Below, in pieces: positions 4,325 through 20,364 of a DNA stretch of 20,681 nt. Location of the stretch: positions 1 through 20,681 of IMG/VR virus record IMGVR_UViG_3300034103_001773; one strand, written 5' to 3'. Made by a program: the position numbers and the translations under genes. Source of the stretch: a virus. Below the pieces are notes generated by a model. The model was not told the DNA's origin and did no database searches. It saw only the letters and a program-made list of their open reading frames with translations. How positions within the stretch are numbered: the first letter of the stretch is position 1; the number at the start of each line of letters is the position of its first letter.

Positions 4325-4521
4325 GTGAAGGTTTTAGTGAAGAAAATATTGAAGTTGCGATTAATAAAAACGAAATTCAAAAACTTCTAAAAAAATATAA
4401 AAAAATAAAAAAATACCAAAAATCATCTCTGTTTGCTATCAAAACAATGGACGGCACAGAAGAGATTATAAGTTCATTGATTAGCGAAGCAAAAGAGAAT
4501 GGGGAAACATTATCTACTTAA
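4321..4521 (+). CDS. Hypothetical lysine-rich protein, 66 aa
   Basis: A small, mostly helical and strongly charged protein. Residues about 15-35 are dominated by Lys with Ile, Leu and Tyr (LLKKYKKIKKYQKSS), and the ends are acidic. It starts by ATGA overlap with the upstream gene and overlaps the start of speD by 23 nt, so it lies within the same overlapping chain. Nothing in it identifies a function. Confidence 0.6.
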   Translation: MSEGFSEENIEVAINKNEIQKLLKKYKKIKKYQKSSLFAIKTMDGTEEIISSLISEAKENGETLST

Positions 4522-4825
4522 TTTGTATGGATGCTCATTTGTCCTTTTGGACGATGAGCGTTGTCTTATAGATCTACTAGAAAATGCTGCAATAGCAAGT
4601 GGTGCTACTGTGGTTCAAACTATCTCAAAAAAGTTTGAACCACAAGGAGTTACTGTGCTTTGTTTGTTGTCTGAAAGTCATATCAGTATTCATACTTGGC
4701 CGGAGGAAGGTAAAGCAGCAGTAGATGTTTATACCTGTGGTGATTGTAATCCTAAGATAGGATGTGATATGATCATCCATCAACTCTATGCTAAAGATCA
4801 TACATTAAGCTATATTGAGCGATAA
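4499..4825 (+). CDS. speD: S-adenosylmethionine decarboxylase proenzyme
   Basis: SpeD decarboxylates S-adenosylmethionine to supply aminopropyl groups for spermidine synthesis. It is a known auxiliary gene of cyanomyoviruses. The 108-aa protein matches the short bacterial class. The proenzyme cleaves itself between Glu59 and Ser60 in the motif ESHISIHTWPE, turning Ser60 into the pyruvoyl cofactor. The proton-relay His65 and the catalytic Cys80 (YTCGDC) are in place. The N-terminus overlaps the preceding small gene by 23 nt. No truncation is visible, so the enzyme should be active. Confidence 0.95.
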   Translation: MGKHYLLNLYGCSFVLLDDERCLIDLLENAAIASGATVVQTISKKFEPQGVTVLCLLSESHISIHTWPEEGKAAVDVYTCGDCNPKIGCDMIIHQLYAKDHTLSYIER

Positions 4826-5171: not shown

Positions 5172-5172
5172 A

Positions 5173-5190
5173 TTGTAACAAAAGTTACAA
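5173..5190 (+). promoter_or_regulatory. NtcA-type palindrome
   Basis: TTGTAACAAAAGTTACAA is a perfect 7-bp inverted repeat with a 4-nt centre. It contains GTA (5175-5177), eight bases, then TAC (5186-5188), the consensus of NtcA, the nitrogen-control activator of cyanobacteria. Its centre lies about 50 bp before the predicted transcription start, and 31 nt separate TAC from the -10 box; the classical NtcA spacing is about 22 nt. It could instead be a weak AT-rich terminator for the upstream gene, since a run of five T follows at 5194-5198. Confidence 0.5.
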
Positions 5191-5196
5191 AAGTTT

Positions 5197-5225
5197 TTGC
5201 ATAACTATACTAACAGGTCTATAAT
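5197..5225 (+). promoter_or_regulatory. Sigma70-type promoter of the riboswitch unit
   Basis: TTGCAT (5197-5202) and a perfect TATAAT (5220-5225) are separated by exactly 17 nt. Initiation is expected near 5231-5233, which places the first transcribed base at the 5' edge of the aptamer's first helix. This fit supports both the promoter and the RNA element. Confidence 0.8.
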
Positions 5226-5232
5226 GACCTTA

Positions 5233-5330
5233 CGTTCATCTGTATTATCAGACGGAAGTAAGCCGACGCGGAACGGATCGTTCATTCGCTATTCGCAAAT
5301 AGCGAACGCAAACGCCGACTGAAGGAACGC
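5233..5330 (+). promoter_or_regulatory. Glutamine riboswitch aptamer, downstream-peptide/glnA type
   Basis: The leader carries the conserved core of the cyanobacterial glutamine-binding RNAs as I recall it. CGTTC (5233-5237) pairs with GAACG (5325-5329) to form P1. TCTG (5239-5242) pairs with CAGA (5249-5252) as P2. The hallmark stretch GACGGAAGTA (5251-5260) follows, and the 3' core GAAGGAACGC is at 5321-5330. The third arm is enlarged and holds two hairpins: GAACG/CGTTC (5271-5283) and a 9-bp stem with a CGCA loop (5285-5306). It precedes two very short genes, as the name 'downstream-peptide' implies. Assignment rests on motif memory, not on a covariance search. Confidence 0.8.
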
Positions 5331-5361
5331 TCTTTAACCTAAAAAACTAAGGAGAACCCTA

Positions 5362-5499
5362 ATGTCTAAAGTAGTTTATCGCGGAGTTGAATACGATACG
5401 CAAAAGCGTTTAGAGTATCAACAGCAGATGATGCAACAACCCCAACAATACAACGAAACCTATCGTGGTGTTAAGTTTGTAAAGGAGGGACACAAGTGA
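5362..5499 (+). CDS. DUF4278-like mini-protein under the riboswitch, 45 aa
   Basis: This frame was found by reading the leader. The ATG at 5362 has AAGGAG 7 nt upstream. The product has two copies of an aromatic motif, YRGVEY (residues 6-11) and YRGVKF (34-39), separated by a Gln-rich linker. The YRG-x-Y motif is characteristic of DUF4278, a family of short cyanobacterial and cyanophage proteins of unknown function. It is the first gene after the glutamine aptamer and its stop overlaps the next start (TGATG). By position it is the direct target of nitrogen-responsive control. What it binds is unknown. Confidence 0.8.
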   Translation: MSKVVYRGVEYDTQKRLEYQQQMMQQPQQYNETYRGVKFVKEGHK

Positions 5500-5597
5500 T
5501 GAAAAAACTCAATGCGCTTCAACTCATTAAAGAGCAGAAGCAAAAGGAAGAGAGGCGTAAACAAGCATCTCTTGCTACTCTAGTAGCAGCAAAATGA
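5499..5597 (+). CDS. Basic 32-aa peptide, second gene of the riboswitch unit
   Basis: The start shares a base with the preceding stop (TGATG) and AGGAGG lies at 5483-5488. The peptide reads as one highly charged helix (LNALQLIKEQKQKEERRKQA, then a small Ala/Leu tail). It is too short for an enzyme and has no membrane segment. Its size, charge and control resemble the small regulator peptides of nitrogen metabolism in cyanobacteria, such as the glutamine synthetase inactivating factors, but I see no specific sequence match. The intrinsic terminator begins 3 nt after its stop. Confidence 0.7.
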   Translation: MKKLNALQLIKEQKQKEERRKQASLATLVAAK

Positions 5598-5600
5598 TTC

Positions 5601-5630
5601 AGAGGGGGACTTGACTCCCCCTCTTTTTTT
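5601..5630 (+). terminator. Strong intrinsic terminator closing the riboswitch unit
   Basis: A perfect 9-bp stem (AGAGGGGGA 5601-5609 with TCCCCCTCT 5616-5624), loop CTTGAC, and a seven-T run (5624-5630). It is the strongest terminator in the window. The -35 box of the next promoter is embedded in its loop. Confidence 0.92.
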
Positions 5631-5639
5631 GTGTATAAT
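5611..5639 (+). promoter_or_regulatory. Sigma70-type promoter embedded in the terminator
   Basis: TTGACT (5611-5616) and TATAAT (5634-5639) are separated by exactly 17 nt, a near-consensus promoter. The -35 box occupies the loop and one base of the terminator stem. Transcription would start near 5646 and serve the 59-aa gene, thyX and probably the genes beyond. Confidence 0.8.
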
Positions 5640-5663
5640 TACCTTTGTCAGGGTTAATAAAAC

Positions 5664-5843
5664 ATGGATAGAGAAAAGCTTAAGCTAATTGTCAGAAACC
5701 TTGAATCTCTGGTAGAATGTTTGAAGTCAGAGATCTATTCTGATGTAGATTCGTACAAAACAAGTTACGAAGAAATAGCACCTTACATTACCGATTACGA
5801 CGAAGTATTTTATGATGGAGACGATGATGGATACCCAGACTGA
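5664..5843 (+). CDS. Hypothetical acidic protein, 59 aa
   Basis: A frame of 59 codons starts 25 nt after the promoter -10 box. The N-terminal third is a predicted helix (DREKLKLIVRNLESLVECLK). The rest is acidic and rich in tyrosine, ending YDGDDDGYPD. Its last 17 nt overlap the start of thyX, so both share one transcript. AGGG at 5650-5653 is a weak, slightly distant ribosome-binding site. I do not recognise the family. Its regular composition and promoter position favour a real gene. Confidence 0.65.
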   Translation: MDREKLKLIVRNLESLVECLKSEIYSDVDSYKTSYEEIAPYITDYDEVFYDGDDDGYPD

Positions 5844-6543
5844 ATTTGAGTTTATGAAACCAGAAGTAAAACTCATTAGCGTTACTCCTGATGCAGAGAA
5901 GCATATGGCATACTGTGCAAGGGTAAGTAATCCTGCTAATCAAGAGAATGAAAAGTTCTCTGGACTGCTCAAGTATTGTATTCAACATCAACACTGGAGC
6001 ATCTTTGAACAAGCAAGTATGACAGTAGAGATCAATACAACTCGTGGTATTGCGGCTCAAATTCTCCGACATAGAAGTTTTACATATCAAGAATTTTCAC
6101 AACGATATGCAGACACAAATCTGCTGAATAAAACTATTCCTCTTCCCGAACTACGTAGGCAGGATACAAAGAATCGCCAGAACTCCATTGACGATATTCC
6201 TGATTATTTGAAACTGACTTTAACAGAAGATATTCGCGTTCATTTTGAGCATGGTCTACGCCTCTACAACCGCCTTCTGGAGAAAGGAGTGGCAAAGGAG
6301 TGCGCAAGGTTTGTACTGCCCTTAGCGACGCCCACACGCCTCTATATGACCGGTTCTGTAAGGTCATGGATCCATTACATTGATTTGCGTTCTTCTCATG
6401 GCACACAGAAGGAACACATGGAGATTGCAGAACTAGTACGATGCATTTTTACTTGTCAGTTTCCTGCAGTATCTGAAGCACTTGGTTGGACTCGTGAAGG
6501 ATGCTCTGAGTGTAATGATGCACCTTCTATTACTATTGAATAA
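5827..6543 (+). CDS. thyX: Flavin-dependent thymidylate synthase
   Basis: ThyX makes dTMP from dUMP with methylenetetrahydrofolate and NADPH through FAD, supplying thymine for phage DNA replication. The defining ThyX signature RHR-x7-S is present (RHRSFTYQEFS, residues 81-91), followed by QRYA. The C-terminal region carries the arginine-containing substrate motif (GSVRSWIHYIDLRS). The 238-aa length is normal. Several in-frame ATGs lie at 5812, 5815, 5824 and 5827; I chose 5827 because GGAG (5817-5820) is 6 nt upstream. It follows the promoter embedded in the terminator and overlaps the 59-aa gene. Confidence 0.95.
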   Translation: MDTQTEFEFMKPEVKLISVTPDAEKHMAYCARVSNPANQENEKFSGLLKYCIQHQHWSIFEQASMTVEINTTRGIAAQILRHRSFTYQEFSQRYADTNLLNKTIPLPELRRQDTKNRQNSIDDIPDYLKLTLTEDIRVHFEHGLRLYNRLLEKGVAKECARFVLPLATPTRLYMTGSVRSWIHYIDLRSSHGTQKEHMEIAELVRCIFTCQFPAVSEALGWTREGCSECNDAPSITIE

Positions 6544-6824: not shown

Positions 6825-7583
6825 ATGCCAACGAAAAAAAGAAATTCTCCTCAAAATCCTGTTCCATTTGGAATGAGTAATAGGCAGATGAAACGTAAGA
6901 AGCCAATCAATCTTGATATCATGAAGGCGATTGAACCTTTAACTGATAATCAAGAAGAATTTTTTAGATCATATAAACTAGATCAAAACATTGTTGCTTA
7001 TGGTTGTGCGGGCACTGGTAAAACTTTTATTGCGCTGTACAACGCACTTAGAGATGTGCTTGATGAAAGATCGCCATATGAAAAGATCTATATTGTTCGT
7101 TCTCTAGTAGCAACAAGAGAAATTGGATTTCTTCCCGGAGACCATGAAGATAAGTCTTCACTTTATCAGATTCCTTATAAGAACATGGTGAAGTATATGT
7201 TTGAAATGCCTGATGATTCTGCATTTGAAATGCTATATGGAAACCTCAAAACTCAAGGAACGATTAGTTTTTGGAGTACTTCTTTTATTCGCGGAACTAC
7301 TCTGGACAATGCAATCATTATTGTAGATGAATTCCAGAACTTAAATTTCCACGAACTTGATTCAATCATCACTCGTGTTGGTGAGAATAGTAAGATCATG
7401 TTCTGTGGTGATGCCACTCAATCAGATTTGATTAAATCAAATGAAAAGAATGGGATTGTTGACTTCATGAAAATTCTACGTATTATGCCTTCATTTGATA
7501 TTGTAGAATTTGGTGCAGAAGATATTGTTCGTTCTGGACTAGTTAAAGAATATATTCTTGCAAAAATGGAATTAAACGTATGA
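6825..7583 (+). CDS. phoH: PhoH-like P-loop ATPase
   Basis: PhoH-like proteins are P-loop ATPases related to the helicase superfamily 1 core; they are very common in marine phages and their job is unresolved. Here Walker A is GCAGTGKT at residues 60-67 and Walker B is IIIVDE at 164-169, followed by FQNL. A sensor-like GDATQSD segment follows further on. The 252-aa length is typical of phage PhoH. The N-terminal 35 residues are basic and probably flexible. It overlaps the nuclease gene by 4 nt (ATGA), so the pair is probably co-translated. It is often linked to phosphate stress, but I see no Pho box here. Confidence 0.95.
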   Translation: MPTKKRNSPQNPVPFGMSNRQMKRKKPINLDIMKAIEPLTDNQEEFFRSYKLDQNIVAYGCAGTGKTFIALYNALRDVLDERSPYEKIYIVRSLVATREIGFLPGDHEDKSSLYQIPYKNMVKYMFEMPDDSAFEMLYGNLKTQGTISFWSTSFIRGTTLDNAIIIVDEFQNLNFHELDSIITRVGENSKIMFCGDATQSDLIKSNEKNGIVDFMKILRIMPSFDIVEFGAEDIVRSGLVKEYILAKMELNV

Positions 7584-9493: not shown

Positions 9494-10444
9494 ATGTCTT
9501 TTTCTGACCTTAAAAAACAATCTTCTCTTGGTTCACTGACTTCCAAACTGGTAAAGGAAGTAGAGAAGATGAGTACAACTTCTGGCGGCGCAGATGAGCG
9601 TCTCTGGAAACCCGAAATGGATAAGACTGGTAATGGTTTCGCAGTCATCCGTTTTCTTCCTGCTCCTGAGGGCGAAGAACTTCCTTGGGCAAAAATGTAT
9701 TCTCATGCCTTCCAAGGACCTGGTGGTTGGTACATTGAAAACTCTCTGACTACCATTGGTCAGAAAGATCCACTGGGCGAACACAATCGTGAACTCTGGA
9801 ACAGTGGTTCTGAAGCAAACAAAGAAACTGTTCGTAAGCAGAAGCGTAAACTTTCTTATTACAGCAACATCTACGTTGTAAAAGATCCTACAAATCCTCA
9901 TAACGAAGGTAAGGTATTCCTCTTTAAGTATGGTAAGAAGATCTTTGACAAGATCATGGAAGCAATGCAACCTGAGTTTGAAGATGAGACTCCTATCAAT
10001 CCTTTTGACTTCTGGCAAGGTGCAAACTTCAAACTGAAGATTGTGAAGAAGGATGGTTATTGGAACTATGATAAGTCTGAGTTTGGTCCTGTAGAACCTC
10101 TACTGGATGATGACGATGCTCTTGAAACAATCTGGAAGAAAGAGTATTCTCTTGCAGCAGTAACTGCTCCTGATCAATTCAAGTCTTATGAAGAACTTGA
10201 GCGTCGTATGAATATGGTTCTTGGTCTTAAGAACTCTTCTCCTGCTCGTTCTCGCGCAGTGGTTGAGCAAGAAGATGAACTGGAAGAGTTTCAACAAACT
10301 CCCACAGTCCAAGATCGTGTTGTAGAGGAACTGGAGCAGTCTTATGCTCGCTCCAAGTCTCCTTCACTTCCTGTAGTTACAAAGGAAGTTGATGAAGATG
10401 AAGATGATGCTCTTGCATATTTCCAGCGTCTTGCTGAAGATTGA
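9494..10444 (+). CDS. 32: Single-stranded DNA-binding protein gp32
   Basis: gp32 coats single-stranded DNA cooperatively in replication, recombination and repair. The 316-aa protein keeps the T4 plan: a basic N-terminal B domain (DLKKQSSLGSLTSKLVK), an OB-fold core (AVIRFLPAPEGEELPWAKMYSHAFQGPGGWYIEN to NPFDFWQGANFKLKIVKKDG), and an acidic C-terminal tail (EVDEDEDDALAYFQRLAED) that recruits partners such as gp59. The zinc-binding cysteines of T4 gp32 are absent; the matching region reads ENSLTTIGQKDPLGEH. The ATG follows CGAGGTAAT. Arginine codons are largely CGT, as in highly expressed genes. The A-rich leader before the ATG would suit translational autoregulation as in T4. Confidence 0.93.
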   Translation: MSFSDLKKQSSLGSLTSKLVKEVEKMSTTSGGADERLWKPEMDKTGNGFAVIRFLPAPEGEELPWAKMYSHAFQGPGGWYIENSLTTIGQKDPLGEHNRELWNSGSEANKETVRKQKRKLSYYSNIYVVKDPTNPHNEGKVFLFKYGKKIFDKIMEAMQPEFEDETPINPFDFWQGANFKLKIVKKDGYWNYDKSEFGPVEPLLDDDDALETIWKKEYSLAAVTAPDQFKSYEELERRMNMVLGLKNSSPARSRAVVEQEDELEEFQQTPTVQDRVVEELEQSYARSKSPSLPVVTKEVDEDEDDALAYFQRLAED

Positions 10445-13763: not shown

Positions 13764-14546
13764 ATGCCTGCACCCAGTCCATCTAAGAAGGTATTAACAG
13801 ATTTAAAAGCGTCTATTTTAAATCCTGCTTTAACATCTCATTTTCAATGTTGGTTTAATCCACCTGACTTAGTTCAGCAGTGGATTTCCCAAAAGGCAAA
13901 TGCTGGGCTTGGAATTGCATATGGAAGCAATTCGGAATTTTTTTCCTTATCATGTTCTGAAGCATCACTTCCCGGATCATCTTTAGCAACACATGAAATT
14001 AATAATGATTATAGTGGTGTAACAGAGAGACATGTTTATAGAAGACAGTATGATGATAGAGCATCCTTTACTTTTTATGTTGATCATGACTATAATATAA
14101 TTTATTTCTTTGAAAACTGGATCTCTTATATTGTAAATGAACAATTTGCCGATGCTAATGGAATACCTGGAATTGAAAATCTAAATCATTTTTATAGAGT
14201 TAATTTTCCAAAGCAATATCAAACAACAATATATCTTAAAAAGTTTGAAAGAGATTATGCTGGAAGAATACTTCAATATAGATTTTTAAATGCATATCCA
14301 ATCAGCATTGATTCAATGCCAGTTTCCTATGATTCTTCTCAATTATTAAAGTGTACCGTGTCATTTAACTATTCAAGATATATCGTTGGTGGTGGAGAAA
14401 ATATTGTTCCACCTAGAGAATCTCTTACTTTAAATCGTCCAAATGGAGACCAGATAAATGTAAATGGACTTGATCCAAATAGACCTTTACAAGCTCAACT
14501 TGCTGAACAAGGTTTATTAACTGGAGGAACTATTCAGCAACAATAA
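13764..14546 (+). CDS. 54: Tail-tube-fold baseplate protein, gp54-like
   Basis: The 260-aa protein shows the pattern of tail-tube-type folds. CSEASLPGSSL matches the tube 'ALPG' loop, and strands follow (ASFTFYVDHDYNIIYFFENW). Next come a helix, then TTIYLKKFERDYAGRILQYR and AYPISIDSMPVSYDSSQLLK, and finally the strand CTVSFNYSRYIV. This order (tube strand, FENW helix, DxxG-R, NAYP-I, final strand) is shared by T4 gp54 and gp19. In a baseplate cassette next to gp48 and gp26, the tube initiator gp54 is the best fit. The C-terminal 50 residues are Pro/Asn/Gln-rich and flexible. No ribosome-binding site is obvious. Confidence 0.65.
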   Translation: MPAPSPSKKVLTDLKASILNPALTSHFQCWFNPPDLVQQWISQKANAGLGIAYGSNSEFFSLSCSEASLPGSSLATHEINNDYSGVTERHVYRRQYDDRASFTFYVDHDYNIIYFFENWISYIVNEQFADANGIPGIENLNHFYRVNFPKQYQTTIYLKKFERDYAGRILQYRFLNAYPISIDSMPVSYDSSQLLKCTVSFNYSRYIVGGGENIVPPRESLTLNRPNGDQINVNGLDPNRPLQAQLAEQGLLTGGTIQQQ

Positions 14547-14576: not shown

Positions 14577-15296
14577 ATGCCTTTACCAAAGATCTCTACA
14601 CCAACATATGAGTTGGAACTACCTTCTACTGGACAAACAATTCAATATAGACCATTTTTAGTTAAAGAAGAAAAATTATTAGTACTAGCATTAGAAAGTG
14701 AGAATACAAAAGAGATTACAACTGCAATTAAGAACGTAATCAAATCCTGTATTCATACTAAAGGAATTAAGGTAGAAACTCTGCCAACATTTGATATTGA
14801 ATATCTTTTCCTAAACATCAGAGGTAAATCTGTTGGAGAAGAGATTGAAGTCAATATTATTTGTCCTGATGATGGTGAGACTTATGTTCCTGTCAAAATT
14901 AGTATCGATGATATCAAAGTAGAAAAGAAAGAGGATCACTCTAATAAAATTCAAGTTGATAAATCAATTGTGATGGAAATGAAGTATCCATCTCTAGATC
15001 AATTCATCAAGAGCAACTTTGATTTTAGTTCTGATGGTGCAATGGATCAATCTTTTGATCTGGTGGCAGCGTGTATTGATAAGATCTATAATGAGGAAGA
15101 AGTTTGGGCAGCGGCAGACTGTACTAAGAAAGAACTAATAGAATTTCTTGAGCAGATGAACTCAACTCAATTCAAAGAGATTGAAAAGTTCTTTGAGTCA
15201 ATGCCAAAACTTTCTCATGAAGTTAAAGTTACAAATCCAAAAACTGAAGTTGAGAGCACTGTTGTGCTGGAGGGACTCTCAAGTTTTTTCGCATAG
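14577..15296 (+). CDS. 26: Baseplate hub protein gp26, probable frameshift donor
   Basis: The 239-aa protein matches the gp26 (T4 baseplate hub/assembly) family by plan: an N-terminal strand pair (PTYELELPSTGQTIQYRPFL), the helix VKEEKLLVLALESENTKEI, the segment IEYLFLNIRGKSVGEEIE, a metal-ribbon-like CPDDGETY and the DQFI helix in the middle. T4 gp26 is 208 aa. It is needed to assemble the baseplate hub. The last codons, agt ttt ttc gca tag, contain a slippery heptamer, and a stem-loop follows 6 nt later; the -1 frame is open for another 61 codons. It begins after AGGA and a late promoter. Confidence 0.85.
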   Translation: MPLPKISTPTYELELPSTGQTIQYRPFLVKEEKLLVLALESENTKEITTAIKNVIKSCIHTKGIKVETLPTFDIEYLFLNIRGKSVGEEIEVNIICPDDGETYVPVKISIDDIKVEKKEDHSNKIQVDKSIVMEMKYPSLDQFIKSNFDFSSDGAMDQSFDLVAACIDKIYNEEEVWAAADCTKKELIEFLEQMNSTQFKEIEKFFESMPKLSHEVKVTNPKTEVESTVVLEGLSSFFA

Positions 15297-15324
15297 CTCT
15301 AGTCCACATGGACTTGGAGAGTTA
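15284..15324 (+). promoter_or_regulatory. Predicted -1 programmed ribosomal frameshift signal
   Basis: T TTT TTC at 15284-15290 lies in the gp26 frame as X XXY YYZ, the form required for simultaneous -1 slippage. After a 6-nt spacer (15291-15296, which contains the gp26 stop TAG) comes a stem-loop: CTCT (15297-15300) with AGAG (15318-15321), and AGTCC (15301-15305) with GGACT (15310-15314), an ACAT loop and a 3-nt bulge. Three further pairs can extend its base. Shifting leads to codon CGC at 15290 and on to the stop at 15473. Confidence 0.75.
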
Positions 15325-15475
15325 CTTCAAGCTTAATTTTTCCTTGATGCAGTACCATAAATATTCATTAACGGAGATTGAAAACATGATGCCTTGGGAA
15401 CGAGACATCTATGTTGAATTATTAAGAGCTCATTTAGAAGAAGAAAAACTTAAGCAGCAGCAAAATGGGTCCTGA
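15308..15475 (+). CDS. Short tail-assembly reading frame, likely the -1 extension of gp26
   Basis: A 55-codon frame (from ATG 15308) with a conserved-looking core, FSLMQYHKYSLTEIENMMPW followed by ERDIYVELL and a Glu/Lys/Gln tail. It is in the -1 frame relative to gp26 and remains open back through the slippery site. The ATG at 15308 has no ribosome-binding site and lies inside the predicted stem-loop, which favours production as a gp26 fusion of 299 aa. An internal start at 15386, with GGAG 9 nt before, could also make a 29-aa form. T4 has gene 51 in this position, but that protein is far longer and I see no clear similarity. Confidence 0.7.
   Translation: MDLESYFKLNFSLMQYHKYSLTEIENMMPWERDIYVELLRAHLEEEKLKQQQNGS
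15356..15363 (+). promoter_or_regulatory. Possible late promoter of the tape-measure pair
   Basis: CATAAATA lies within the short -1 frame, about 100 nt before the ATG at 15465. Seven of eight bases match the T4 late consensus. Confidence 0.4.
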
Positions 15476-17492
15476 CGAGTTAGATGATCTACTGGCAAGC
15501 ATAAGAGCGGAGGGTAAAAGAGAATCCGCTCTTGCTTTGTATGAGGGTAAGGGTGAAGAGGATTTAGTTGATGAAAATATAGATGAAAGAATATTAAAAC
15601 TTCTTGGATTGGATGATGTATTTGATATTGATTATGGAACTTATATTTCTCTTTTAAAAGAAAGACTTGCTGCGTCTAGAAGTTTTGGTAAAAAACTTTC
15701 TACAGAAGAAGACGAACTACTTGTTGAAGAATTTAGAAAAGTTAAAGGAAAAGTTGGTAGATTTAAAATAAGAAGAAAGAAAATTACTGCAGAAAATATT
15801 GGTGTAACTGGTCCTGTCAAAGTTTCTACCGAAAGATTTTATCTAACATCAAAAGCAATAATACCTCAACCATCAACTTCTGTTGGAGAATCTTCTGAAG
15901 ATATAAAGGATATTAGCAAAGCACTTGACGAATTACTAAAGAGCATTACAGAACAAAATAAGCAAGAGAAGAAAAAGGCAGAAGAGAGTAGAAAGTCTGA
16001 CGAACAAAGAAGAAGAACTAAAAGAGAGGTAGAATTAGAAAAACCATTAAAAAAAGCACTTGGATTAGTTAAAACTTTAGTAGCGCCATTCCAAAGTATT
16101 CTTGATAGAATCATGAGATTCATTCAGTTTACTTTGATTGGATTTTTAGTTGATAAAGTTTTAAAGTGGTTTGCTGATCCTGCAAATGAAAAGAAAGTAA
16201 AAATTCTTGGTAGATTCTTAAAGGATTGGTGGCCTGCATTAGCATTTGCTGCTGGATTATTTCTGACTCCTCTTGGTGCATTTGTTCGCGGAACTCTTAA
16301 AATGCTGAGGACTTTTGTTCCTCAAATGGTTAGATTTATGGCAGCTAATCCATTAATTTTTGGTACAGTTGCTGCTGGAGCTGGAGCATATGCTGCTGTC
16401 CAAATGAATGAAAAGTTCAGAGCACAGCAAAAGAAAACTGATAAATCTATTGTAACACCTCAGCAAACTGCTAGAACAGGAAAAACTCCTCTTCCCGCAC
16501 AACTGCAACAAGAACAAGTTCTTCAAAGAGGACTTGGTGGAATGTTTAGTGGTGGTGGTAGAGTAAGAAGAAAATCATTCTTTGGTGGTGGGGCAGTTGA
16601 TAAAATTGTAAATGTAAAAGATATTGCTTTTACAGAGGGAGGTGGTATTGATGATGACAGTGGTGTAAGAATTACTGGTGCAGGTCCTGATACTCAGTTG
16701 ATTGCTGCACAACCCGGTGAAGTTATGATGTCTAAAAAAGCAGTTGATAAACATGGTGCTAATTTTTTCCTTAAATTAAATAAGGATGCTGGTGGAACAA
16801 ATATTCCCAGAATGGTGAATAATATTCAACTTGCTCAAGGTGGCGGACTTATTGGTGCCTTGGGTAGACTAGGATTGCCTGGAACTGGAACTGTCATGGC
16901 ACCTAGAGGAATGGAACTTGGATATCAAAATAAATTTTTGGGATTAAATGTTGGAGGTGTTAGAAACTTACCATTAAATCAAACTTATTCTCCTGCAGCA
17001 GCTCAAAGATATAATACATCTCCAAGTGCTCCTAGTACTCTAAGTAGATTTGAAAGTGGGCCTCTCTTTGGTAGACATGTGAGTGTTCCTAAAACAGGAA
17101 CATCTACTCCTACTTCAGGGTTTAAACCCAAACCTTCATCTGGAATGAATTTGAATTTGAAACAAAATGTTCAAACTATACAAGGTGCTACGAAAAGGCA
17201 AATAGAAATAATGCGTCAATATGGGCATGAACCTGATGGACATGACACTTTCTTTAGAAGGCATCCTGCAGTTATGGGTCCACAGTCAAGAGCAATGCCT
17301 ATAGGAACTCCAACAATTGTTTCTAGAACTCAAACAATTGTTTTACCGCCACAAACAATACCAGGCAAAAAACCAAGTGTTCCTGTTAAAACTGGAACAC
17401 AAATACCAGATGTTTCAGTTGTTGCCAGAATTCCTCATAGAGAAATGGTAATTCGGTCTCTTGGAATTGGTGATTTGATGGGGGTAGGATGA
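15465..17492 (+). CDS. Tape-measure-like tail protein, 675 aa
   Basis: A large virion-type protein overlapping the short upstream frame by 11 nt. Residues 1-140 are charged and helical. Residues 145-195 form a strongly charged coiled coil (Glu/Lys/Arg). Residues 207-236 hold a hydrophobic motif (ILDRIMRFIQFTLIGFLVDK) that recurs in the next protein. Two further hydrophobic stretches lie near 255-275 and 293-313. A Gly-rich region leads to LIAAQPGEVMMSKKAVDKHG at 412-431, a pattern I know from phage tape measures. The C-terminus is low-complexity Pro/Thr/Ser. I infer a tail tape-measure or hub-associated protein; T4 gp29 is the positional candidate, but I cannot align it. Confidence 0.65.
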   Translation: MGPDELDDLLASIRAEGKRESALALYEGKGEEDLVDENIDERILKLLGLDDVFDIDYGTYISLLKERLAASRSFGKKLSTEEDELLVEEFRKVKGKVGRFKIRRKKITAENIGVTGPVKVSTERFYLTSKAIIPQPSTSVGESSEDIKDISKALDELLKSITEQNKQEKKKAEESRKSDEQRRRTKREVELEKPLKKALGLVKTLVAPFQSILDRIMRFIQFTLIGFLVDKVLKWFADPANEKKVKILGRFLKDWWPALAFAAGLFLTPLGAFVRGTLKMLRTFVPQMVRFMAANPLIFGTVAAGAGAYAAVQMNEKFRAQQKKTDKSIVTPQQTARTGKTPLPAQLQQEQVLQRGLGGMFSGGGRVRRKSFFGGGAVDKIVNVKDIAFTEGGGIDDDSGVRITGAGPDTQLIAAQPGEVMMSKKAVDKHGANFFLKLNKDAGGTNIPRMVNNIQLAQGGGLIGALGRLGLPGTGTVMAPRGMELGYQNKFLGLNVGGVRNLPLNQTYSPAAAQRYNTSPSAPSTLSRFESGPLFGRHVSVPKTGTSTPTSGFKPKPSSGMNLNLKQNVQTIQGATKRQIEIMRQYGHEPDGHDTFFRRHPAVMGPQSRAMPIGTPTIVSRTQTIVLPPQTIPGKKPSVPVKTGTQIPDVSVVARIPHREMVIRSLGIGDLMGVG

Positions 17493-17493
17493 T

Positions 17494-20364
17494 ATGGCAG
17501 TCATAGATTCTAAAAAATTATTACCCTCGGGCAAATCTGGGGGTTCCATCGTAGATACACAAAAACCATTTTTGGTTCCTGTAAGTAATATTCTTTATAA
17601 GAAAGATGTAAATATATCTCAAAAACTTTTAAAACCTGCAGATAGAGAAACTCAAGGATCTGGTGGCAGTCTTTTAGTCATTAAAAAGAAAGTTTTAAAG
17701 ATTCAAGATGTAATTGGTAACACTTATTTAATTCAACAAAGTGAAAATACACGAAAAAGAAAAGAAAAAGAAAGACAGAAAGCAGAGGACAGAGAGAAAA
17801 AGTTAGAAACTAAACCGGGCAGAAAGGTAGATTTTAATAGTCTACCAAAATTATCTTTACCTGGTGGAAGCATTCTTGATACAATTAAAAGATTTATTGC
17901 TTTTACTTTTGCAGGATTTTTATTTGATAAGTATAACAAATATCTTCCCAAGTTATTGGAGTTTGGAAAATATATTGAACCAGTCACTAAGTTTATTGAT
18001 ATATTTGCAAAAAATGCAATAGATGGCGTTATTAAATTTATTGATTTGGGATATCAAACTTATGATAATGTTCGTAAGAAAATTGATGATATTGGTGGAA
18101 AAGATGCAGCAAAACAATTTGATAAATTTTCTGGAGAATTAAACAAATTATTGAATGGTGCCATTATGGCATCCATGTTAATTGCTAGCACTGCACCTAG
18201 ATCTCCTAGAGGTGCTGCAGGTGGTATTGGTGCAGGTGCTTCAAGGTCTTTAGGTATGGGGGCGGTTCCAAAACCAATTAGTGGATTTGGTGCTGGAACT
18301 GGAATGACTCCCGGTAGATATAGAGCACCCGGACAAGCATCTTCAAGAGGATTCGGATTAGAGCAAGCAAGGAAAGGTTTAACATTTGAACAGTCAGTTG
18401 CAGCAAGAAAGGCTGCTCAAACAACAGCAACTCAAGGTGCTAAAGGTGCAGCAAGATTGAGCATCGCAAGAGTTCCAATTATTGGTGCTCTAATTGGTTT
18501 TATCGTTGATACTGTCGTCTTTCGTGAGAAACCATCTAGAGCAGCAGCAGGTGCGGTTGGAAGTGCTGTTGGACAAGGTATTGGACTTGCGCTTGCTGGA
18601 GGAACAACTTTTGGTCTTGGTGCTGGTGTTGGATTATTTGTTGGTGGATTCTTGGGAGACATAGTTGGCAAATCTTTATATGATGCTTTTACAGGATATC
18701 AACCACAACCAACTCCAGCAAAAGCACAAGGTGGGCAAGTTAGATCTGGACAATCTAGGGTTACACCTACAAGAAAAATTAAAACTCAACGTACATCAAC
18801 ACGTAAAACTTTTACTCCTACAAAAGTTCAACCCGGAAGAGACATTGGTGGAAAATTGAGAGTTGAAAGTTTATATGGTAAAGATGAACCAGGAAAAAGA
18901 AGCGCATTAAGAGCTCTTGTAAAAAGTTCTACAGACTTGAAGAAGATGAGATCTTTGAATGGTGTTGCTGGTGGTATGCTTGGTGCTGGTGTTGACATGG
19001 CACTTGGACAAAAACCAGATAGAAAACTTGCAAACTCTCTTGGTAATATGTTTGGTAGCGTTGTTGAAGCAGCAATAAATACAGAACTTAATTCTTCTTT
19101 TAATGATATTTCAAAATCAATTGCTATGGCAAATGGTGGAGTAGTTCCTTCCAGAGAGATTGGAAGTGGTATTAATATTGGTGAAAGAATTGGTAGATAT
19201 ATATCTAATGCTTTTTCAATCGCGCTCGAAAGTTCTGCCTCTAGAGTTCTGCAAAATTTAAATCAGGAATTGAATTTAGAAGGAGCGCCTCCTGGCGGAA
19301 CAACAGGACCTACCGGACCTGAGGGTAATGTTCCTGGAGCAAAACTTCGCTCAGGGTCTAATGCTCAGATAGAGGCAGATCTTTTAGAATATTTTACTGC
19401 AATCTATGGTAAAAATGCTGCTATCGGCATTGTTGCTAATATAAGAAGAGAGAGTGGATATAGAACTGCTACTCCAGATAATCCAAGATTTGAAGGTATG
19501 GTTCAATGGAGCCGAGATGATAGATGGCCTAAATTTGTAAAGTGGGCACAAAGTAAGGGACTGGATCCTTATAATAGAAATGCCCAAGCACAATATATTG
19601 CTATTGACATTAATAATCACGGAATTGCTGGAGAACTAAAAGCAGCTTCAAGTCCAGAGGAAGCAGCAAGCATTTTTTATAATAGATTTGAGAGGGGAGC
19701 ACACAGTAAACCAGTTAAAGGTAATAATTATACTCCAGATAATCCGCATGAAAATTTAAATAAGCAATTTATTTCTGATATAACTGGAAGAAACCCCAAC
19801 ATTGGTAGTCGAGCTTCGCAAGTAGTAGTATATCCCGCTCTTTCCATGACAGGATATAAACCACCAACACCTGGACTTTTTAATGCAATTCAATATATAA
19901 CAGGAGATTCAACTCAGGGTGCAAATTATGATCCAGTTGGACATGGTGGACTAAAATATCATGAGCATATTGCTTTTAAAACAGAAGCGGATAAAGAAAG
20001 AGCAAAAGCAGCATTAAGAGCGGCAGGATTTGTGATTGGCAGTGAATATAGACCTGGAGATCGTGGATATCATGGAGCAAATCTTGCAATTGATGTTCCT
20101 TTTTATGGACAAAAACGTAAATATAGCGATAATACATCAGGTGAACGAAAATTCAGTGCAGATGTAAGAAGAGTATTGGGAATAGGAAATGTAGCACCTG
20201 TTCAACCAAGACAAAATCTACAATTACAATCCTCATTATCACCAACACCATCATCTACTAGTAATTTGATTGCATCTATTCAACAAAATCCCTCATATAG
20301 TCAAGGTGGAAATACAATTGTCCATGATGTTAACAATATAGTAATGCCAGTTGTGATAGGTTAA
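17494..20364 (+). CDS. Tape-measure-like protein with tail lysozyme and peptidase-like domains, 956 aa
   Basis: The N-terminal part mirrors the previous protein: a Lys/Glu coiled coil near 87-106 and a hydrophobic motif at 127-146 (LDTIKRFIAFTFAGFLFDKY). Gly/Ala-rich hydrophobic segments follow at about 325-395 and mid-protein repeats to 600. Residues 620-770 match the phage tail lysozyme fold, with Glu653 in NIRRESGY, a GMVQW motif and a later Q-Y-I-A helix. Residues about 800-885 contain H823-E-H825 and a His860-x6-Asp867 pattern (GYHGANLAIDV), reminiscent of M15-type metallopeptidases. It probably opens the cell wall as the tail crosses it. The start follows TAGGATG. Confidence 0.75.
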   Translation: MAVIDSKKLLPSGKSGGSIVDTQKPFLVPVSNILYKKDVNISQKLLKPADRETQGSGGSLLVIKKKVLKIQDVIGNTYLIQQSENTRKRKEKERQKAEDREKKLETKPGRKVDFNSLPKLSLPGGSILDTIKRFIAFTFAGFLFDKYNKYLPKLLEFGKYIEPVTKFIDIFAKNAIDGVIKFIDLGYQTYDNVRKKIDDIGGKDAAKQFDKFSGELNKLLNGAIMASMLIASTAPRSPRGAAGGIGAGASRSLGMGAVPKPISGFGAGTGMTPGRYRAPGQASSRGFGLEQARKGLTFEQSVAARKAAQTTATQGAKGAARLSIARVPIIGALIGFIVDTVVFREKPSRAAAGAVGSAVGQGIGLALAGGTTFGLGAGVGLFVGGFLGDIVGKSLYDAFTGYQPQPTPAKAQGGQVRSGQSRVTPTRKIKTQRTSTRKTFTPTKVQPGRDIGGKLRVESLYGKDEPGKRSALRALVKSSTDLKKMRSLNGVAGGMLGAGVDMALGQKPDRKLANSLGNMFGSVVEAAINTELNSSFNDISKSIAMANGGVVPSREIGSGINIGERIGRYISNAFSIALESSASRVLQNLNQELNLEGAPPGGTTGPTGPEGNVPGAKLRSGSNAQIEADLLEYFTAIYGKNAAIGIVANIRRESGYRTATPDNPRFEGMVQWSRDDRWPKFVKWAQSKGLDPYNRNAQAQYIAIDINNHGIAGELKAASSPEEAASIFYNRFERGAHSKPVKGNNYTPDNPHENLNKQFISDITGRNPNIGSRASQVVVYPALSMTGYKPPTPGLFNAIQYITGDSTQGANYDPVGHGGLKYHEHIAFKTEADKERAKAALRAAGFVIGSEYRPGDRGYHGANLAIDVPFYGQKRKYSDNTSGERKFSADVRRVLGIGNVAPVQPRQNLQLQSSLSPTPSSTSNLIASIQQNPSYSQGGNTIVHDVNNIVMPVVIG

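Follow-up and report, generated by a model that had tools for sequence, protein, structure and literature searches.

The 3' end of the gp26 gene in IMG/VR record IMGVR_UViG_3300034103_001773 raises the question of whether this gene encodes one protein or two. An initial annotation, made from the sequence alone, had proposed that a -1 frameshift fuses gp26 to a short downstream frame. The window analyzed here is the whole stretch of 20,681 nucleotides, positions 1 to 20,681 of the record. Our analysis makes it very probable that this is a tail assembly chaperone gene with a -1 programmed ribosomal frameshift, which gives short and long forms as in the G/GT system of phage lambda.

The short form, gp26 (239 aa, TAC-N-like), is encoded at positions 14577..15296 on the + strand, to which all features of the site belong. 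Its reading frame ends with AGT (15282), TTT, TTC, GCA and the stop codon TAG (15294-15296), and the slippery heptamer T TTT TTC (15284..15290) is thereby placed in the register needed for tandem -1 slippage. The -1 frame (15290..15475) is open from the heptamer to a TGA at 15473-15475 and would add a gp51-like, TAC-C-like extension to the C-terminus of gp26, giving a fusion of 299 aa with the junction ...SSFF|RIALVHMDLESYF.... A spacer of 6 nt (15291-15296) separates the heptamer from a predicted RNA hairpin of 9 bp with one bulge at 15297..15319, which has a folding energy of -11.0 kcal/mol and a z-score of -2.3 with respect to dinucleotide shuffles. The heptamer, spacer and stem-loop are located where the initial annotation had put them, and translation confirmed its open frame up to 15473 and the sizes of both products. 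It had further stated that the downstream frame lacks a ribosome-binding site and that the ATG of this frame (15308..15310) is buried in the stem. No Shine-Dalgarno sequence was found upstream of this ATG, in agreement with the former, but only its G is paired in the stem whereas A and U are located in the loop. The codon corresponds to the annotated gp51 start of relatives and is probably not the main start.

By itself the heptamer is weak evidence, because in-frame XXXYYYZ strings are frequent in this AT-rich window, with 27 of them in the listed genes. Conservation was analyzed in a close set of 80 IMG/VR loci, chosen by gp26 protein similarity (72-97% identity), and in a wider set, for which these loci were supplemented by two large and two small further scans and by named phage records. 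The latter was reduced to 206 distinct gp26 3' ends, three of them truncated, leaving 203 complete ones. TTTTTTC was kept in all 80 close loci, selected as these were on protein similarity, and the preceding codon was AGT, TCT, GGT or GAT, always with a final T. T TTT TTC/T was present in 200 of the 203 complete 3' ends (TTTTTTC in 189, TTTTTTT in 11), counts that do not represent independent events because the sequences share ancestry. For comparison, the Phe codons in the rest of gp26 are TTT in 69% and TTC in 31% of cases. The signal occurs in Prochlorococcus phage P-SSM2 and the Synechococcus phages S-RIM8 and S-CREM2, and also in Stenotrophomonas phage Yut3, Delftia phage PhiW-14, Aeromonas phage Ah1 and the Vibrio phages PVA23 and Bakedbeans. 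Conserved to this extent the heptamer is far beyond chance, and it is the conservation, not the string, that carries the argument.

Among the 203 complete ends, Rhizobium phage RHph_I1_18 harbors T TTT TTA and is one of three exceptions. A Stenotrophomonas phage contig (L106, about 3744), whose gp26 is 99% identical to that of Yut3, has a run of five T, not six, at the slippery site. This alters the frame at the 3' end of the chaperone gene and reflects either a base error or a mutant. Vibrio phage K369 (L089) has A CTT TTC and thus no classical heptamer, yet its -1 frame is still open; it uses either an unusual slip site or reinitiation at a TAATG overlap.

The initial annotation had suggested aligning gp26 3' ends of other cyanophages for conservation of both heptamer and stem. 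The heptamer is conserved as described. Across the wider family the exact stem is not, but a hairpin has been retained at about the same distance. As a null model for the folding energies, sequences were resampled such that the protein of the -1 frame was held constant. Between 5 and 44 nt past the heptamer the mean energy was -8.1 kcal/mol compared to -4.2 kcal/mol for the null, and it was lower than the null in 89% of 179 sequences, while windows beginning at least 38 nt past the heptamer showed little or no folding excess over this codon-preserving model. In 42 close relatives 88.8% of the core stem positions were paired with 18 double changes, the covariation score was not reached in any of 500 shuffles, and it dropped when the stem was slid by one column. 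RNAalifold predicted no consensus pairs for the alignment of these 42 sequences. As a family-wide structure the exact stem of the window was rejected, since pairing in the same register was near independence over 168 sequences. Conservation therefore concerns the presence of a hairpin rather than its sequence, as the energy test is positive while the exact register shifts across the family. At the level of sequence comparison these data demonstrate selection on RNA structure 3' of the heptamer.

A further element, missed by the initial annotation, is located upstream. The window carries a Shine-Dalgarno-like GGAGGG at 15269..15274, ending 9 nt before the heptamer, and a GAGGG or GAAGG run ends 9-10 nt upstream of the heptamer in 161 of 179 relatives. 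At this site the Glu codon is GAG in 73% of cases versus 32% in the rest of gp26, and the Gly codon is GGG in 21% versus 7% elsewhere. The Shine-Dalgarno duplex energy is just slightly above the synonymous null, so that the case for this element is built on codon choice and spacing. By analogy with dnaX, the run is probably a second frameshift stimulator.

The -1 frame was also analyzed for its coding capacity. It is open across the relatives, while the remaining two frames contain about 3.6 stops per sequence, and its product is conserved (NF-A/S-LMQYHKYSLTEIENMMPWERDIYV). The dN/dS ratio is about 0.15, with a median dN of 0.23 and a dS of 1.5, values that refer to the minority of pairs that are unsaturated. 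Judged by this ratio, the -1 frame is under purifying selection. Those outcomes named by the initial annotation as refuting it that are amenable to computation did not occur: heptamer and open -1 frame are both conserved, and a start codon of the downstream frame is not. Both parts of the fusion match the profiles of the T4 gp26/gp51 family (PF12322, phrog_150 and phrog_634) over their full length. In profile searches gp26 matched PF12322 (T4_baseplate) with an E-value of 1.8e-76 and phrog_150 with 1.9e-81, and the -1 frame matched phrog_634, "baseplate hub assembly catalyst", with 1.6e-28, as well as the C-terminal end of phrog_150.

The relationship to T4 is colinear. Residues 1-201 of T4 gp51 correspond to PF12322 (E 3.9e-52) and are followed by a C-terminal tail, which matches the -1 frame (E 4.8e-6; hhalign probability 92%). 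A profile of 178 fusions aligns with T4 gp51 through the junction, whereas T4 gp26 consists of the short domain only and aligns with the short form. No slippery site was found at the 3' end of T4 gp26. This indicates that T4 encodes the short and the long product as two genes. Both T4 proteins appear in the literature as hub assembly chaperones; gp51 is not a component of the particle, although assembly depends on it (PMC3004832).

No sequence relatives of gp26 were found in the PDB. An AlphaFold2 model of gp26 (pLDDT 87.6) was compared with PDB folds, and its N-domain matched 3fgx (Z 8.0), 2ob9 (Z 7.9) and 3klu (YqbN, Z 7.2), followed by a next match at 4.9; Z-scores near 8 are suggestive only and lie in a range for which the search tool advises caution. 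The predicted N-domain may thus resemble the HK97 tail assembly chaperone 2ob9, with which it is aligned over 84 residues at 8% identity, whereas gp26 has an additional C-terminal half. The lambda-like G/GT scheme put forward by the initial annotation gains from this fold match and from the continuous homologue T4 gp51. The PDB fold search with a model of T4 gp51 returned no chaperone match and nothing useful. Structural relatives of gp26/gp51 in BFVD extend to Campylobacter, Bacillus (SP-15), Leptospira and Ackermannviridae phages, and one in Citrobacter phage Moon is named "Tape measure chaperone".

Upstream of gp26, at 13764..14546 on the + strand, profile matches to PF23849 and phrog_45 identify a tail-tube-like protein. 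Directly downstream follows an ORF of 675 aa (15465..17492, + strand) and then one of 956 aa, both of which show only weak matches to tape-measure profiles. With the tube-like gene the order would be lambda-like, namely tube, G, T and a candidate tape measure, the last on weak profile matches. Candidates for the tape measure are the 675-aa protein, which may also be a hub protein, and the 956-aa protein. The latter (17494-20364) is long and partly hydrophobic, contains a phage tail lysozyme domain (PF18013, residues 638-738) and distantly matches the PDB entry "Morphogenesis protein 1".

Elsewhere in the window, a psbD-like gene (13-879) adjoins a psbA-like gene (939-2000) in the region 13-2000; these photosystem II core genes were identified by eye from the translations, and the pair is typical of T4-like cyanophages. 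Host-like or T4-core genes further along encode S-adenosylmethionine decarboxylase (4499-4825, PF02675), ThyX (5812-6543, PF02511), PhoH (6825-7583, PF02562) and a gp32-like single-strand binding protein (9494-10444, PF08804). The region 5172-5663, about 490 bases, contains no ORF reaching 50 aa in either direction, and neither tRNAs nor Rfam elements were found there or anywhere else in the window.

From these observations we infer the following course of translation. Most ribosomes would stop at TAG 15294 and release the 239-aa gp26. A fraction would be held at T TTT TTC by the downstream hairpin, a pause to which base pairing between 16S rRNA and the GAGGG run 9-10 nt upstream would probably contribute. 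The two Phe tRNAs would then slip back by one base, and translation would continue to 15473 and yield the 299-aa gp26-gp51 fusion. Slippage at some efficiency would thus set a ratio of the two forms. By analogy with lambda gpG/gpGT, the short form would be made in excess and coat the tape measure protein, while the rare long form would recruit tail-tube or hub proteins. The role as tape-measure chaperones that the initial annotation had suggested for gp26 and its partner is consistent with this model, and these binding partners are likewise presumed.

The main alternative is that gp51 is a separate gene, translated by termination and reinitiation at the ATG just past the gp26 stop, with no fusion being made. 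This would agree with the databases, as in the public cyanophage records inspected gp26 and gp51 are annotated as two separate genes. In many relatives an ATG occurs only a few codons away from the stop, and in several distant ones it overlaps the gp26 stop (TAATG or TGATG), which would permit reinitiation. However, the annotated gp51 start differs among phages, and in the S-RIM8 record only the 45-aa remainder is annotated for gp51. Of 179 relatives, 59 lack a Met among the 10 initial codons of the -1 frame, which indicates that a separate start is not conserved, and the ATG of the window lacks a Shine-Dalgarno sequence. Reinitiation would also assign no role to the hairpin or to the heptamer and its codon choice, and T4 gp51 is a continuous fusion. 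We therefore consider it very unlikely. A broader scheme combines both processes: the cyanophages would use a full dnaX-like cassette of Shine-Dalgarno-like run and hairpin in their cyanobacterial hosts, reinitiation at the loop ATG would supply some free gp51, so that three tuned products arise from one locus, and an ancestral frameshifted gene would later have given rise, by splitting, to the separate genes 26 and 51 of the T4 group. Taken as a whole it is improbable, if less so than reinitiation alone.

Slippage of RNA polymerase on the six-T run, giving mRNAs with altered numbers of U that encode the fusion, appears even less probable than reinitiation. The homopolymer is present and extends to seven T in 11 relatives, but six U are short for efficient polymerase slippage, and the C conserved after the run (189 of 203) keeps it short. 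The hairpin and the codon register fit tandem tRNA slippage instead, and K369 has kept the frame without the run. Finally, in-frame heptamers are common in the window and one of them might be functionless, or a sequencing indel might have produced the arrangement. This is refuted by conservation, as the stop, the heptamer and the open -1 frame recur in about 200 distinct sequences, and we assign it a negligible probability.

A -1 programmed frameshift thus remains the favored reading, by which a single gene encodes tail assembly chaperones of two lengths. This matters for correct annotation: since gp51 is, on the present evidence, the tail end of a frameshifted chaperone, cyanophage annotations should present the two as one joined gene. 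T4 is explained as well, its hub-assembly chaperones gp26 and gp51 being the presumed two-gene version of one frameshifted gene. This fits an older statement in a 2016 review (PMC5009743), according to which T4 is the exception to a G-T frameshift otherwise widely conserved among long-tailed phages; the review also covers the conserved tail-gene frameshift of lambda gpG/gpGT described by Xu, Hendrix & Duda 2004.

The initial annotation knew of no description of such a frameshift for gp26 of T4-like cyanophages, which does not hold in view of the literature. Tail assembly chaperone genes, their short/long pairs and poly-T frameshift signals in T4-like phages are credited to Vladimirov et al. 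2022 by both the PRFect (PMC10885494) and the Adele (PMC12846349) papers. The PRFect paper refers to Vladimirov, Gautam & Davidson 2022 (Virology 566:9-15) for T4-like phages that carry, in place of frameshifting, one short chaperone gene and one long fused one. As far as these citations convey it, the arrangement is not new and was already reported for T4-like phages by Vladimirov et al. 2022. Our analysis adds anatomy to it, namely the GAGGG element, the conserved hairpin and the absent start codons. The abstract of the earlier study is said to state that frameshifting is conserved in several T4-like groups and that T4 uses genes 26 and 51. According to what is cited from it, the closest parallel is genes 26 and 51 of T4-like phages, which share the PF12322/phrog_150 family, the short/long pair and, in relatives, the poly-T slippery site; T4 has two separate genes, whereas the present phage has one gene and a -1 shift. 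Compared to lambda gpG/gpGT, where the heptamer is G GGA AAG, the present phage uses a different heptamer and has a hairpin and a Shine-Dalgarno-like element. The layout corresponds to that of the Escherichia coli dnaX cassette, in which the heptamer A AAA AAG is preceded at about 10 nt by a Shine-Dalgarno-like element and followed at about 6 nt by a hairpin, but the dnaX frameshift product is truncated, whereas that of the present phage would be extended.
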